This document shows positions 14,700 through 18,962 of a stretch of DNA of 35,493 nucleotides, in pieces. Under the pieces are notes generated by a model. The model saw nothing but the letters and a program-made list of their open reading frames with translations, did no database searches and was not told where the DNA came from. The position numbers and the translations under genes were made by a program. Numbering within the stretch: position 1 is the stretch's first letter; every line of letters starts with the position of its first letter. The DNA is from Streptosporangiales bacterium (GTDB lineage Bacteria > Actinomycetota > Actinomycetes > Streptosporangiales > Streptosporangiaceae). The stretch lies in assembly GCA_009380095.1 (NCBI GenBank), contig WHSL01000036.1, positions 1-35,493 on the forward strand, read 5' to 3'.

Positions 14700-15419
14700 A
14701 TGCGCAAGCTCGTCATCTTCCTCGTCGTGCTGCTTGCGCTTGTGATCGTGGGCGACTGGGGTCTCAAGCAGGCAGCGGAACGAGAGATCGCCAAGCGGGT
14801 GGCGGCGAAGGTCAGGCTGACCGAGCCGCCGGAGGTGACCATCGATGGTTACCCGTTCCTCACCCAGATGCTCTCGGGCAGGTATGAGTCCATCCACCTC
14901 GTCTCCGGCCAGATCAGCCGCGGCGAGGTCAGGGTCAAGAGCCTCGACGTGCGGCTGAACGGCGTGACGGCGCCGCTGGAGAAGCTGCTCGCCAACTCCG
15001 GCGACTCCATCACCGCCACGAGCGCCACCGCCACGGCCCTGGTGCCGTACGGCGAGGTGCAGCGGCGCGTCCCCGAAGGGCTGACCGTCGCGCCCGCCGG
15101 GGAGTTCCTGCAGCTCTCCGGGGAGTTCTCGGTGGCCGGGGTGAAGGTGCCGGTCAAGTCCAAGCTGAAGCTCAAGGTCACCCGGCGCGGCATCGTCGCG
15201 GTGCCCAAGGAGGTCCAGGTCGGGCGATTCCCGGCCAGTGCGGTGCGCAACCGGCTGGGCTTCACCGTGCCGCTGCGCGAGCTGCCGATGAAGCTGAAGG
15301 TCACCGGCGTCAAGGTCACCCCGGGCGGCCTGCAGGTCAACGCGCGCGGCACCCAGGTCGCCCTGTCCGGTGGGAACCTGTCCGGCGGCAGCCTCGAAGA
15401 GGGCACCTCGGGCAACTGA
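14700..15419 (+). CDS. lmeA: LmeA-type phospholipid-binding protein (DUF2993)
   Basis: A 239-aa envelope protein with an N-terminal hydrophobic helix (residues 3-20, VIFLVVLLALVIVGDWGL) serving as signal or anchor, followed by a DUF2993 domain. The domain shows its typical features: EREIAKRVAAKV, DGYPFLTQMLSGRYESIHL, and repeated beta strands such as VRVKSLDVRLNGV. In mycobacteria the family member LmeA binds phospholipid in the periplasm and promotes mannan elongation of lipomannan; that it does so here is inferred from family and from synteny with glnR and mshD. Start ATG at 14700, immediately preceded by GGGAGAGGA. Confidence 0.85.
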   Translation: MRKLVIFLVVLLALVIVGDWGLKQAAEREIAKRVAAKVRLTEPPEVTIDGYPFLTQMLSGRYESIHLVSGQISRGEVRVKSLDVRLNGVTAPLEKLLANSGDSITATSATATALVPYGEVQRRVPEGLTVAPAGEFLQLSGEFSVAGVKVPVKSKLKLKVTRRGIVAVPKEVQVGRFPASAVRNRLGFTVPLRELPMKLKVTGVKVTPGGLQVNARGTQVALSGGNLSGGSLEEGTSGN

Positions 15420-15483
15420 TCCTCCGCAGACGCCCGCTCGCGCGTACGGTGAACCATCGGCGCCGGGCAGACGTGAGGCTGGT

Positions 15484-15999
15484 GTGGGCGAGGCCGCAAG
15501 GACTGCGGATGAGGACTTGATGCGTGCGCTGTACGCGGAGCACGCGGGTCCGTTGTTCGGCTATGCCCTGCGGCTGACCGGTGATCGTCAGCGAGCCGAG
15601 GACATCGTGCAGGAGACGCTGCTGCGGGCATGGCGCCACCCGGAGGCCCTGGGTGGGGCCCCGGTACGGCCTTGGCTGTTCACCGTGGCGCGCAACCTGG
15701 TGGTGGACGCCGCGCGGGCCCGCAAGGCCCGGCCCCCCGAGGTGGGCGACGCCGCGCTACAGGCGGTGGCCGCCGCCGACGAGATCGACCGTGCCCTGCA
15801 GTCCTGGGCGGTGGCCGACGCGATCGGCACGCTCAGCCTTGACCACCGCGCGGTGCTGATCGAGACGTACTTCCGCGGCCACACCGTGGCGGAGGCCGCA
15901 CGGCGCCTCGGTGTGCCCGAGGGCACCGTCAAGTCGCGCACGTACTACGCGCTGCGCGCGCTGCGGCTGGCCCTGGAGGAGCGGGGGCTCGCGCCATGA
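15484..15999 (+). CDS. ECF RNA polymerase sigma factor (SigL-like)
   Basis: A 171-aa extracytoplasmic-function sigma factor. Region 2 (about residues 12-75) includes LYAEHAGPLFGYALRLTGD and RAEDIVQETLLRAWRH, which bind the -10 element and core polymerase. Region 4 near the C-terminus has the helix-turn-helix HTVAEAARRLGVPEGTVKSR, which binds the -35 element. The GTG at 15484 is taken as start (GAGG 5 nt upstream); the in-frame ATG at 15520 is possible. The stop overlaps the anti-sigma start by 4 nt (ATGA), a sign of strict co-production. It resembles the SigL/RslA kind of pair. Targets unknown; autoregulation is usual. Confidence 0.92.
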   Translation: MGEAARTADEDLMRALYAEHAGPLFGYALRLTGDRQRAEDIVQETLLRAWRHPEALGGAPVRPWLFTVARNLVVDAARARKARPPEVGDAALQAVAAADEIDRALQSWAVADAIGTLSLDHRAVLIETYFRGHTVAEAARRLGVPEGTVKSRTYYALRALRLALEERGLAP

Positions 16000-16655
16000 G
16001 TGCCTGCGCTGACATCAGGTACGAGCTCGGCGCGTACGCCCTCGGTGTGCTGGACGACGACGACCGCCGGGCCGTGGACGCGCACCTCGCGGACTGCCCA
16101 GAGTGCCGCGCGGAGGTGGACTCCTTCACCCGGCTCGGCGCGCAGCTCGCGCTGGTGAACGAGGAGCAGGTGCACCAGGCCGCCGAGCCGCCCCCCGAGC
16201 TGCTGGACCGTACGCTCGCCGCGGTGGCGTCGGGCCGCCGGCGCGGGCGCCGCCGGCTGCTGCTGGCCGCGGCCGCCGCCTCGGTGGCGCTCGGCCTCGG
16301 CGTGGGCGCCGGGTGGAGCCTGCTCGACCAGGACGGCGACTCGCCCGCACTGACCGCGCCGCCGACCACGTCGGCCAGCGAGTCGTCGGACGGGATCGCC
16401 GCGCAGGTGGGCATGGAGGCACGGGGCTGGGGCACCGCGCTGACCGTACGGATGACCGGGGTGCCGGTGAAGACCCGCTGCCGCCTGGTGGCCGTGGGCG
16501 ACGACGGCCGCCGCGACACCGCCGCGAGCTGGGAGATCACCTACCCGGGCCCCGCCCGCTTCGAGGGCGCCACGGCCATCCCCCGAGACCGCCTCCAGCA
16601 CCTGGAGATCGTCACCACCCAAGGCCACACCCTCCTCACCATCCCCGTCGCCTAA
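15996..16655 (+). CDS. Zinc-finger anti-sigma factor
   Basis: A 219-aa membrane protein that should hold the upstream sigma factor inactive. The N-terminal cytoplasmic anti-sigma domain carries the zinc motif His30-x3-Cys34-x2-Cys37 (HLADCPEC), which can sense redox state in this family. A basic RRRGRRR stretch leads into a single membrane helix (about residues 84-107), and the extracytoplasmic part (about 120-219) is a compact domain with RLVAVGDDGRRDTAASW. It is translationally coupled to the sigma gene by ATGA overlap. Signal and release mechanism (oxidation or proteolysis) cannot be told from the sequence. Confidence 0.92.
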   Translation: MSACADIRYELGAYALGVLDDDDRRAVDAHLADCPECRAEVDSFTRLGAQLALVNEEQVHQAAEPPPELLDRTLAAVASGRRRGRRRLLLAAAAASVALGLGVGAGWSLLDQDGDSPALTAPPTTSASESSDGIAAQVGMEARGWGTALTVRMTGVPVKTRCRLVAVGDDGRRDTAASWEITYPGPARFEGATAIPRDRLQHLEIVTTQGHTLLTIPVA

Positions 16656-16711
16656 CCCCCAATTTGTGGTTGAGCGGGAATGTGGGAGGCGCGGGATAGC
16701 TTGAGAACGTT

Positions 16712-17137
16712 GTGACTGGTCTTGTGGTCTGCCTACTCGTCCTCGCCGGGGCGGCGGCTTTCGGTGCCTGGTGGCGCCGGCGCGACGGGGAGGTGCGTGA
16801 CGTGCCCGCGGCCGAGGGGTCCGCCCTGTTCGCCGCGGACCTCGGCGCGCCGCTCGGTCCGCGCGCCACCCTCGTGCAGTTCTCCTCGGCGTTCTGCCAG
16901 CCCTGCCGGGCGACCCGCCGGGTGCTCGGCGAGGTGGCCGGCATGGTCGACGGCGTGGCGCACGTGGAGATCGACGCGGAGAGCCGCCTCGATCTGGTAC
17001 GCCGCCTCGACGTGCTGCGCACCCCGACCATCCTGGTGCTGGACGCCGAGGGCCGGGTGGTCCGGCGCGCCTCCGGGGCCCCGCGCAAGGCGGACGTCAT
17101 CGCCGCGCTGGGACAGGCGATCCCCGAAGGTGTCTGA
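16712..17137 (+). CDS. Membrane-anchored thioredoxin-like protein (ThiX-type)
   Basis: A 141-aa protein with an N-terminal membrane helix (residues 3-20) and a thioredoxin fold with the redox motif FCQPC (Cys62, Cys65). The cis-Pro segment RTPTILVLD and the EGRVVRRASG strand follow. The loop between helix and domain is basic (WWRRRDG), so by the positive-inside rule the domain would face the cytoplasm. In mycobacteria a thioredoxin (ThiX) sits next to the cysA2-sseC genes, as here, which suggests a role in sulfur transfer or reduction of a persulfide carrier. The start is GTG at 16712, with no ribosome binding site; a TAGCTT lies 9 nt upstream. Confidence 0.85.
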   Translation: MTGLVVCLLVLAGAAAFGAWWRRRDGEVRDVPAAEGSALFAADLGAPLGPRATLVQFSSAFCQPCRATRRVLGEVAGMVDGVAHVEIDAESRLDLVRRLDVLRTPTILVLDAEGRVVRRASGAPRKADVIAALGQAIPEGV

Positions 17138-17168
17138 CCGTACGGACCGGAGCGGAACGGATCCGGAA

Positions 17169-17197
17169 GTGACAGCCACGGGCCGTACCCGTAGCAT
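17169..17197 (+). promoter_or_regulatory. Promoter of the sulfur operon leader
   Basis: GTGACA (17169-17174) and TAGCAT (17192-17197) stand 17 bp apart and match housekeeping -35/-10 elements well. The -10 ends 7 nt before the ATG of the leader peptide, so transcription would begin at or next to that ATG and the leader would be leaderless. Confidence 0.6.
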
Positions 17198-17204
17198 CGG
17201 GGAC

Positions 17205-17312
17205 ATGCGTACCCGCGATGTGCGACGCCGCGACGGTGCCGCGCGCCTGCTCACCAGGCGTCGCGCCGTCGACTTCTGCCGCGTCGCCACCGCACTGTGT
17301 CCCGCCGGCTGA
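17205..17312 (+). CDS. Putative Cys-containing leader peptide of the sulfur operon
   Basis: A 35-codon frame with the pattern of actinobacterial leader peptides found before sulfur-assimilation genes: an Arg-rich first half, then LLTRRRAVDFCRVATALC, ending PAG. Two Cys codons (residues 25 and 32) stand near the end, suited to ribosome stalling when cysteine is short. A good promoter lies directly upstream so that the start codon is near the transcript start. The next gene begins 78 nt later, behind a pyrimidine-rich stretch and a hairpin covering its ribosome binding site. Attenuation by cysteine is known for poly-Cys upstream frames in mycobacteria; here it is inferred. Confidence 0.7.
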   Translation: MRTRDVRRRDGAARLLTRRRAVDFCRVATALCPAG

Positions 17313-17376
17313 GCGCGCGATCCGCATTTCTTCGATTCCTCGCGTTTCTTCGCATCCCGCAATCCCGCTCCGCTTA

Positions 17377-17389
17377 GGGGGACGCCCCC
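17377..17389 (+). promoter_or_regulatory. Hairpin masking the DUF4395 ribosome binding site
   Basis: GGGGG-ACG-CCCCC is a 5-bp G:C hairpin ending 1 nt before the ATG at 17391. The G-run is the only candidate Shine-Dalgarno, so it would be hidden when the hairpin forms. Together with the upstream Cys leader it could serve translational control. Confidence 0.5.
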
Positions 17390-17390
17390 G

Positions 17391-17813
17391 ATGCAGGTCG
17401 ACCCGAGAGGCCAGCGGTTCTCCGCGGCCGTGACCACCGTTGTGCTGGCGATCGTCCTGGTGACCGGCAGCCTGTGGCTGCTCGTCGCGCAGGCGGTGGT
17501 CTTCGCCGCCGGAGCCCTCGCCGGCCTGAGGTACGCACCGTACGGCTTGCTCTACGCACGGTTCGTGCGTCCGCGGCTGGGCCCACCGGCCGAGCTCGAA
17601 GACGCCGCCCCGCCCCGGTTCGCCCAGGGCGTCGGTCTGGTTTTCGCGCTGGCAGGTGTGCTCGGCTACGTCCTCGGGGTCACCTGGCTGGGCATGGCGG
17701 CGACCGCCGCCGCGCTCGCCGCGGCCTTCCTCAATGCGGCCTTCGGGTTCTGCCTTGGATGCGAGATGTATCTGATCATCGTCCGATTCAGGCCATCCCG
17801 CAGCAGAGTATGA
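17391..17813 (+). CDS. DUF4395 membrane protein
   Basis: A 140-aa integral membrane protein with about four helices in two pairs, separated by a cytoplasm-like loop (ARFVRPRLGPPAELED). The family's FGFCLGCEMYL motif lies near the C-terminus, with Cys121 and Cys124 at a membrane edge. DUF4395 proteins are usually found with rhodanese or thioredoxin genes; a role in moving or reducing a sulfur species across the membrane is a reasonable but unproven idea. It is the first structural gene after the Cys leader peptide and 10 nt before the sulfurtransferase gene, so clearly one operon. Confidence 0.85.
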   Translation: MQVDPRGQRFSAAVTTVVLAIVLVTGSLWLLVAQAVVFAAGALAGLRYAPYGLLYARFVRPRLGPPAELEDAAPPRFAQGVGLVFALAGVLGYVLGVTWLGMAATAAALAAAFLNAAFGFCLGCEMYLIIVRFRPSRSRV

Positions 17814-17823
17814 GGAGGTTCCC

Positions 17824-18663
17824 ATGAGCCGCTCTGACGTTCTTGTCGACGCCGACTGGGTCGAGTCTCACCAAGACGACCCCGGCGTGGTGCTCGTCGA
17901 GGTCGATGAGGACACCAGCGCCTACGACAAGGGCCATATCCGCAACGCCGTCAAGATCGACTGGAAGCAGGACCTGCAGGACCCGGTCCGCCGCGACTTC
18001 GTCGACAAGGCTGGTTTCGAGAAGCTGCTCTCCGAGCGCGGCATCGCCAACGAGCACACGGTGGTGCTGTACGGCGGCAACAACAACTGGTTCGCGGCGT
18101 ACGCGTACTGGTACTTCCGCCTTTACGGGCACCGCGACGTGAAGCTGCTCGACGGCGGCCGCAAGAAGTGGGAGCTGGAGTCCCGCGAGCTCGTCGCCGA
18201 CGTGCCGCAGCGGCCCAAGACCACCTACACCGCCAAGGAGCAGGACACCGACATCCGCGCCTTCCGCGACGAGGTGGTGGCCGCGATCGGCGCGAACAAC
18301 CTGGTGGACGTGCGCTCGCCCGACGAGTTCACCGGCAAGCTGCTGGCCCCGGCGCACCTGCCGCAGGAGGCCTCGCAGCGGCCCGGCCACGTGCCCACCG
18401 CCCGCAACATCCCGTGGGCGAAGACGGCCAACGACGACGGCACCTTCAAGTCCGAGGACGAGCTCCGCGAGCTCTACGCGGGCGAGGGCGTGGACCTCGG
18501 CAAGGACACCATCGCCTACTGCCGCATCGGCGAGCGCTCGGCCCACACCTGGTTCGCCCTGCACGAGCTGCTGGGCCTGCCGAACGTGAAGAACTACGAC
18601 GGCTCGTGGACCGAGTACGGCTCCCTGGTGGGCGTACCGATCGAACTGGGAGAGGCCAAGTGA
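17824..18663 (+). CDS. cysA2: Thiosulfate sulfurtransferase (two-domain rhodanese)
   Basis: A 279-aa cytoplasmic protein with two rhodanese domains. The N-terminal inactive one (about 1-125) contains YDKGHIRNAVKIDW and KLLDGGRKKW. The catalytic C-terminal one (about 145-279) has NLVDVRSPDEFTGK and the active loop YCRIGERSAHTWF with Cys233. The reaction moves the sulfane sulfur of thiosulfate to an acceptor such as cyanide or a thiol through a Cys persulfide. The CRIGERS loop is typical of actinobacterial CysA-type sulfurtransferases. AGGAGG precedes the ATG, and the stop overlaps the next start by 4 nt (GTGA). Confidence 0.95.
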   Translation: MSRSDVLVDADWVESHQDDPGVVLVEVDEDTSAYDKGHIRNAVKIDWKQDLQDPVRRDFVDKAGFEKLLSERGIANEHTVVLYGGNNNWFAAYAYWYFRLYGHRDVKLLDGGRKKWELESRELVADVPQRPKTTYTAKEQDTDIRAFRDEVVAAIGANNLVDVRSPDEFTGKLLAPAHLPQEASQRPGHVPTARNIPWAKTANDDGTFKSEDELRELYAGEGVDLGKDTIAYCRIGERSAHTWFALHELLGLPNVKNYDGSWTEYGSLVGVPIELGEAK

Positions 18664-18962
18664 GCGACCAGGGCTGCGGCGCGCCGACCGGCGGCGCGGC
18701 GGTGACCGACGCCGGCAACCAGGCCATCATCCAGGGCACCGTCACCAAGGACGGCGCCCCGGTGAACGCCTACGCGCGCCTCCTCAACGCCGACGGCGAT
18801 TTCGTCGGCGAGGTGCCCACCGGCAGCGAGGGCACCTTCCGCTTCTTCGCCGCCTCGGGCACCTGGACCGTACGCGTCCTGGCCGCAGGCGGGTTCACCC
18901 AGGATTACCCCGTCCAAGCCGAACTCGGCACCATCAAGGACCTGGAAGTAACGGTCGCCTGA
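18660..18962 (+). CDS. sseC: SseC-type protein (DUF1416)
   Basis: A 100-aa protein of the DUF1416 family, nearly always encoded right after the CysA-type sulfurtransferase in actinobacteria. It has an early Cys in DQGCGAPTGG and a transthyretin-like beta-sandwich: IIQGTVTKDGAPVNAYARLL, GDFVGEVPTGSEGTFRFFAA and GTWTVRVLA. The GTG start overlaps the rhodanese stop, so translation is coupled. The function is unknown; a structural partner or sulfur acceptor for the rhodanese is plausible. The operon ends with a strong hairpin 8 nt past the stop. Confidence 0.92.
   Translation: MSDQGCGAPTGGAAVTDAGNQAIIQGTVTKDGAPVNAYARLLNADGDFVGEVPTGSEGTFRFFAASGTWTVRVLAAGGFTQDYPVQAELGTIKDLEVTVA

Follow-up and report, generated by a model that had tools for sequence, protein, structure and literature searches.

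A putative cysteine-sensing leader frame with a fixed UGU codon before a DUF4395 sulfur operon in a Streptosporangiales bacterium

In the window, i.e., the whole 35,493-nucleotide stretch of Streptosporangiales DNA that was analyzed (contig WHSL01000036.1), an operon with DUF4395, sulfurtransferase and DUF1416 genes is preceded by a short leaderless frame. Judged by its sequence, this leader is a member of an already known actinobacterial kind of Cys leader, and cysteine control of the operon is well supported by homology. Given that the same normally rare codon, UGU, is found as the last Cys codon in all the relatives read, the leader points to a sensing mechanism that would be more specific than the counting of cysteines. 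The fixed UGU is presented here as a new and unexplained codon lock on a known leader kind, perhaps a wobble-codon sensor with which the nascent peptide may help.

Leader frame, promoter and family

The features of the leader and the operon are presented in Table 1.

Table 1. Features of the leader region and the sulfur operon (positions in the window).
Feature	Position	Strand	Basis or remark
Promoter GTGACA-N17-TAGCAT	17169..17197	+	read directly and promoter scan
Leaderless leader frame, 35 codons	17205..17312	+	reads MRTRDVRRRDGAARLLTRRRAVDFCRVATALCPAG; stop 17310-17312
Conserved leader core (NF042934 profile positions 2-19)	17247..17300	+	profile search
First Cys codon TGC (Cys25)	17277..17279	+	TGC in 79/80 named relatives
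Last Cys codon TGT (Cys32, profile position 19)	17298..17300	+	proposed sensor codon
GUGUCCC, predicted partner of 17379-17385	17297..17303	+	folds; dependent on transcript length
C/T-rich spacer, possible Rho-loading stretch	17313..17376	+	base composition (C 26, T 19, G 12, A 7)
Shine-Dalgarno stretch GGGGG of DUF4395	17377..17381	+	read directly
Local hairpin GGGGG-ACG-CCCCC	17377..17389	+	competitor of leader pairing; GGGGG 17377-17381, ACG, CCCCC 17385-17389, then G and the DUF4395 ATG at 17391
DUF4395 membrane protein gene	17391..17813	+	PF14340
Rhodanese-type sulfurtransferase gene	17824..18663	+	PF00581
DUF1416 gene	18660..18962	+	PF07210

The promoter consists of GTGACA (17169-17174) and TAGCAT (17192-17197) separated by 17 nt, and the ATG at 17205 follows after 7 nt. 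It is the single site returned by a promoter scan of 17050-17450, with 9 of 12 matches, against a mean of 0.0 in 50 shuffles. This promoter, the leaderless frame with its two Cys codons and the pyrimidine-rich stretch behind it had been described in a first-pass annotation of the window, and all three were confirmed by scanning, reading and base composition. No terminator-like site (hairpin plus U-run), the mark of a classical intrinsic-terminator attenuator, was found in 17050-17450, and the Rfam search of the window yielded no match at gathering score.

The DUF1416 start overlaps the sulfurtransferase stop at 18660-18663 (GTGA), which suggests coupled translation. Directly 5' of the leader (15370-17137) lie genes for an ECF sigma factor, a zinc-finger anti-sigma factor and a thioredoxin-like protein, which may have a redox or sulfur connection to the operon.

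The leader end, LTRRRAVDFCRVATALC, matches the NCBIfam actinobacterial leader family NF042934 (cis_reg_atten) about at its cut-off of 27, with 27.5 bits in a six-frame genome search and 26.8 bits by hmmscan of the frame. The leader was not filed under NF042933 (leader_Ms5788A), because the 31.7 bits obtained by hmmscan (E 9.2e-8) fall below the curated cut-off of 45. Like actinobacterial Cys-leader attenuators, the frame is short and leaderless, carries Cys near its stop and is followed by sulfur genes. The likeness to poly-Cys frames proposed earlier does not hold: Cys25 and Cys32 are separate and are its only cysteines, and only one Cys is present in 38 of 91 relatives (11 of 48 where a leaderless start was recognised), a count that hinges on the chosen start where the leaderless promoter is unrecognised.

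A pattern search placed a leader frame upstream of 26 of 30 DUF4395 loci (the window's own locus counted), with a core mostly near LTKRRAVDFCRVATALC. Among the four loci without a pattern match (L020, L021, L030 and L044), L021 has, by eye, a divergent leader with a TGT Cys at its end, and L030 a shortened leader without the last Cys. Scanning named genomes with a degenerate pattern yielded at least 80 loci, whose titles are Streptosporangiales genera or unclassified actinobacterial bins. An in-frame ATG or GTG follows TANNNT by 6-8 nt in 79 of 80 named relatives, and by exactly 7 nt in 75, where about one is expected; in the class-wide sample, TANNNT is placed for a leaderless start in 48 of 91 leaders, with 1.6 expected.

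Profile searches matched 45 of 60 genomes across the class (E up to 1e-4), 85 of 158 in a second class draw (E up to 3e-6), and 6 of 149 in a phylum-wide draw (E up to 1e-5). These six are the source genome and five of its class, and 123 unmatched genomes of that draw are of unstated kinship. The leader recurs across the class more than by chance, with the named, DUF4395 and profile sets sharing organisms.

Seven leader places at E < 0.001 were obtained in the source genome (the window's included), five of them above the cut-off. The genes after the other six include those for a ThiS-type carrier and a PLP-dependent enzyme of cysteine-synthase type, as well as a sulfite/nitrite reductase, an FMN reductase, a 2-oxoacid:ferredoxin oxidoreductase subunit and a solute-binding protein; the frame after one of the six has no Pfam match at E 0.001. 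At L006 (G000:C76:6383-6418), the leader core ends SSALCPSC, before a 279-residue frame without a Pfam match (E 0.001). The last Cys codon is TGT in six of the seven. At L003 (G000:C270:929-982), before the 2-oxoacid:ferredoxin oxidoreductase gene, Tyr (TAT) replaces the last Cys, and this leader is possibly decayed or re-tuned; before a relative of that gene in G060 (L194), TGT is kept.

The fixed UGU codon and the peptide residues

The last Cys codon, at profile position 19, is TGT in all 91 profile-found leaders read, from 99 non-source-genome places listed. A second draw from other genomes gave TGT in 75/75 leaders read, from 89 new places among the matches listed, and hence 166/166 for the two draws combined. 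These leaders were found by a protein profile, which has no bias at the third base. As every match read extends to position 19, a Cys at that place is presupposed, and the test concerns its codon alone. The named loci, found by a pattern search with TGY, have TGT in 80/80. As a baseline, 18 of 238 Cys codons (7.6%) are TGT in DUF4395 and the following genes, and elsewhere in the same cores Cys is encoded by TGC 57 times and TGT 8 times in the first draw, and by TGC 59 times and TGT 3 times in the second. After position 19, the first draw has TGC 21 and TGT 12.

The base after the last Cys codon is C in 71 leaders, T in 16, A in 3 and G in 1 (first draw), and C in 59, T in 12 and A in 4 (second draw). 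In comparison, Cys codons in DUF4395, a gene whose codons begin with G 42% of the time, are followed by G 88, C 82, T 3 and A 2.

No tRNA-Cys is among the 43 tRNA places of the source draft genome, from which Asp and Phe are missing too; the anticodon was therefore checked in a complete relative, G021. There, GCA is the only Cys anticodon seen in 55 of 56 tRNA places read (the tRNA-finding counts being inflated by overlapping loci), so UGU would be wobble-read in that genome. Decoding would be weakened both by such reading and by a pyrimidine that comes next.

Profile positions 6, 10 and 13 are R, D and R in all 166 leaders, with several codons used. This invariance is partly selection by the search profile, given that the profile favours these residues and that His occasionally takes position 13 in the DUF4395 and named sets. 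The conserved part suggests a sensor: a single UGU, which would be enough in many leaders, at a set spacing from R, D and R, at which slow wobble decoding would stop the ribosome, with nascent-chain contacts perhaps also contributing to the stop. A literature search returned no statement of UGU invariance, although Canestrari 2020 could contain it.

A more far-reaching reading, which we put forward tentatively and doubt somewhat more than we believe, is that the actinobacterial cysteine regulon relies, in many operons, on a device that is part codon attenuator and part arrest peptide. In place of Cys-codon runs, an obligate UGU at one set position, nearly always with a pyrimidine behind it and read only by tRNA-Cys(GCA), would act together with R, D and R residues that grip the exit tunnel (-12, -8 and -5 from the P site). 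In such a hybrid, a small drop in charged tRNA-Cys would suffice to halt the ribosome at UGU, and a sulfur-dependent tRNA-Cys modification affecting UGU reading could join the signal.

RNA structure in the window and in relatives

For short transcripts, folding predicts a pairing of the DUF4395 ribosome site with the region around the last Cys codon. When 17205-17430 is folded, 17297-17303 pairs with 17379-17385 at 0.87-0.89. The mean pairing of 17377-17381 with the leader tail is 0.815, a value reached by 4 of 200 shuffled tails and by none of 200 GC-ending synonymous recodings, all of which lose UGU. Changing UGU to UGC alone gives a tail pairing of 0.04, with the local hairpin rising to 0.32. 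The prediction varies with the transcript end: with the start kept at 17205, tail pairing is above 0.5 for 9 of the 15 ends tried, none of them beyond 17440, and ends 17450 to 17520 give 0.15-0.49.

The local hairpin had been taken to mask the ribosome site, with CCCGC segments of the spacer as the alternative partner. As a mask it takes a small predicted share in most folds (0.04 for 17205-17430), yet it dominates (0.73) when the transcript ends at 17420, where the window's tail pairing is 0.02 in the comparison of relatives that ends there. The region of the last Cys codon is the better-supported predicted partner, compared with either the CCCGC segments or the hairpin. Folding with a ribosome at Cys32, as had been recommended, made the ribosome site only slightly cheaper to open (10.0 instead of 11.5 kcal/mol), a drop that does not exceed the one seen with a shuffled segment (rank 6 of 10). 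In stability, the 17205-17430 fold as a whole does not stand out from its shuffles, 66/200 of which are at least as stable (z -0.43).

Structure was compared across 87 sequences, with 15 of the 80 named loci left out for want of a downstream start and some doubtful start calls among those kept (e.g., L063, L072, L081, L113 and L114). Although GGGGG-ACG-CCCCC is indeed present before the DUF4395 ATG, a perfect local hairpin of at least 5 pairs occurs in 8 of 87 sequences including the window, against 7.4% in shuffles. It was rejected as a conserved switch of the family and kept as a competitor.

Pairing between tail and ribosome site averages 0.27 in the relatives, compared with 0.06 in shuffles (Wilcoxon p 0.018, relatedness uncorrected), and is at least 0.5 in 27 of 87 sequences and in none of the shuffled means; the remaining 60 fall below 0.5. 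When the ribosome is moved from the first to the last Cys, the site is freed by some 3 kcal/mol or more in 22 of 87 sequences, 13 of them Nonomuraea by title, and the freeing exceeds the shuffled control in 49 of 87. The peptide and the codon are thus conserved, whereas the RNA platform is variable among relatives.

A duplex between the A-L-C codons and the ribosome site was tried as a general rule and gave mixed results across relatives. In many Streptosporangiales, a helix between ACAGAGC at the leader start and GCUCUGU at the A-L-C codons is visible; the window has no ACA or ACG codon in the right place, so this helix is not claimed for it and it was skipped in the pair test. The tool alignment A1 came out ungapped and was left out of the pair counts. 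In L050, L061, L045 and similar Nonomuraea-type loci, CCUGAGG at the leader stop is a pairing partner of the ribosome site CCUUCAGG, and the DUF4395 start codon can be enclosed by GCAUC/GAUGC.

Proposed mechanism, alternatives and known systems

The explanation that we favor, and consider probable as a whole, is a ribosome-mediated cysteine sensor with ribosome-site release, belonging to the actinobacterial Cys-leader family. Of its parts, the sensing of cysteine by the leader seems very likely; release of the ribosome site as the output is put slightly below an even balance. Transcription would start at the leader's own ATG, with a ribosome beginning at once. With charged tRNA-Cys scarce, this ribosome would slow with UGU 17298-17300 in its A site and, with an assumed footprint, cover about 17280-17310. 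The covered tail could not hide the DUF4395 ribosome site, and the DUF4395, sulfurtransferase and DUF1416 proteins would be made. With plentiful cysteine the ribosome would run off, the tail GUGUCCC would pair with GGGACGC at the ribosome site, and the local GGGGG/CCCCC hairpin would act as a second lock.

The sensor model draws on the profile match, the 26 of 30 DUF4395 loci, the leaderless promoter, the leaders before sulfur genes, the fixed UGU, the predicted tail pairing and the mycobacterial precedent. The leader, its promoter, the codon and the link with sulfur genes are read from the DNA, the tail pairing is predicted by folding, and a response to cysteine would follow by analogy with relatives. 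We counted against the model its dependence on fold limits, the small drop in opening cost, the ordinary fold stability, the 60 of 87 sequences with tail pairing below 0.5 and the Tyr codon of L003.

Rho-dependent attenuation is somewhat unlikely as a substitute. Here, a ribosome halted on the last Cys codon would keep Rho off the C-rich spacer; with plentiful cysteine, Rho would load there and transcription would stop before DUF4395. C outnumbers G in the spacer of 72 of 85 sequences, compared with 31 of 87 for the stretch upstream of the leader, terminator-like sites are absent from 17050-17450, and the structures vary between relatives while the leader does not; Rho was also proposed for mycobacterial leaders, according to excerpts of Seliverstov 2005 (PMC1262725). 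However, the C excess of the window over the first 60 nt is not extreme, being equaled in 87 of 2100 neighbourhood windows, and the M. smegmatis case is termed translation attenuation in the available part of PMC13236596. That the leader is no cysteine sensor, and only serves to bring ribosomes to a weak ribosome site or yields a peptide acting elsewhere, is very improbable: conservation does extend to peptide residues besides Cys, but family leaders precede sulfur genes in the source genome, and a cysteine response of mycobacterial relatives is cited in excerpts of PMC9094748 and PMC13236596.

On the sub-question of why the codon is TGT, pairing of its last U in the RNA, instead of decoding, is an unlikely answer. 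An early-leader ACA or ACG codon can pair with UGU in many Streptosporangiales, the Thr codon there is ACA in 33 of 55 leaders (4.2% in genes), flanking pairs number 189 vs 180.9 +/- 3.1 when permuted (14/2000, relatedness uncorrected), and the window's U17300 pairs with A17382 in the fold. Yet TGT is just as invariant in the 14/54 leaders that lack a usable ACA/ACG partner, and in those of other operons and families, whose flanks vary and could still offer a partner in single cases. The ACAGAGC/GCUCUGU helix is hence insufficient as the whole reason for TGT, which is fixed without it.

If the sensor reading of UGU is true, the sensor works with a single codon, and codon identity, RNA pairing and nascent-chain effects become separable. 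The fixed UGU makes a one-base prediction, namely that a silent change of UGU to UGC should break cysteine control in actinobacterial sulfur operons.

Homology and print both lend strong support to the earlier claim that, as in mycobacteria, a sulfur operon is headed by a cysteine-responsive leader, and the leader would extend the known control system to a further operon and lineage. In the parts of these sources available, Cys leaders were predicted before mycobacterial cys operons, with Rho suggested (Seliverstov 2005, PMC1262725), a leaderless Cys-codon frame was described before mycobacterial cysA2 (Rv0815; Shell 2015, PMC4633059), and cysteine-dependent control is credited to Canestrari 2020 (PMC9094748 and PMC13236596). 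The excerpt of PMC8079986 covers eight S. lividans leaders, none of them termed cysteine-dependent there, and that of PMC11133741 holds nothing further on this subject.

Like the Ms5788A-type (NF042933) and cysA2 leaders, with which it shares the core LTKRRAVD.CRVA, the present leader is short and leaderless, has Cys close to its end and precedes sulfurtransferase-type genes; unlike the Ms5788A-type leaders, which have a cluster, it has two separated Cys codons. The NF042934 model likewise has a core of 18-19 residues with Cys at its end, and is silent on codon choice and RNA. As is reportedly proposed for the M. smegmatis attenuators (Canestrari 2020), stalling would release a hidden ribosome site, here by prediction from folding; unlike those poly-Cys attenuators, one or two Cys and a fixed UGU are found here, and the response is putative. 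According to the excerpt of PMC8632094, uORFC-8-2 is a Cys attenuator before cysS in Rhodobacterales in which UGC is dominant. There too a cysteine-related gene is controlled through the Cys codons of its leader frame, as is putatively the case here, yet uORFC-8-2 has two tandem Cys codons and an intrinsic terminator. In TnaC, the critical residues Trp12, Asp16 and Ile19 lie at -12, -8 and -5 from Pro24 in the part of PMC8429421 available, which would be the spacing of R, D and R from the P-site residue here, if UGU is in the A site. TnaC has another ligand, other residues except Asp, and a stop codon in the A site; hence the likeness is a resemblance of spacing only, offered as a lead.
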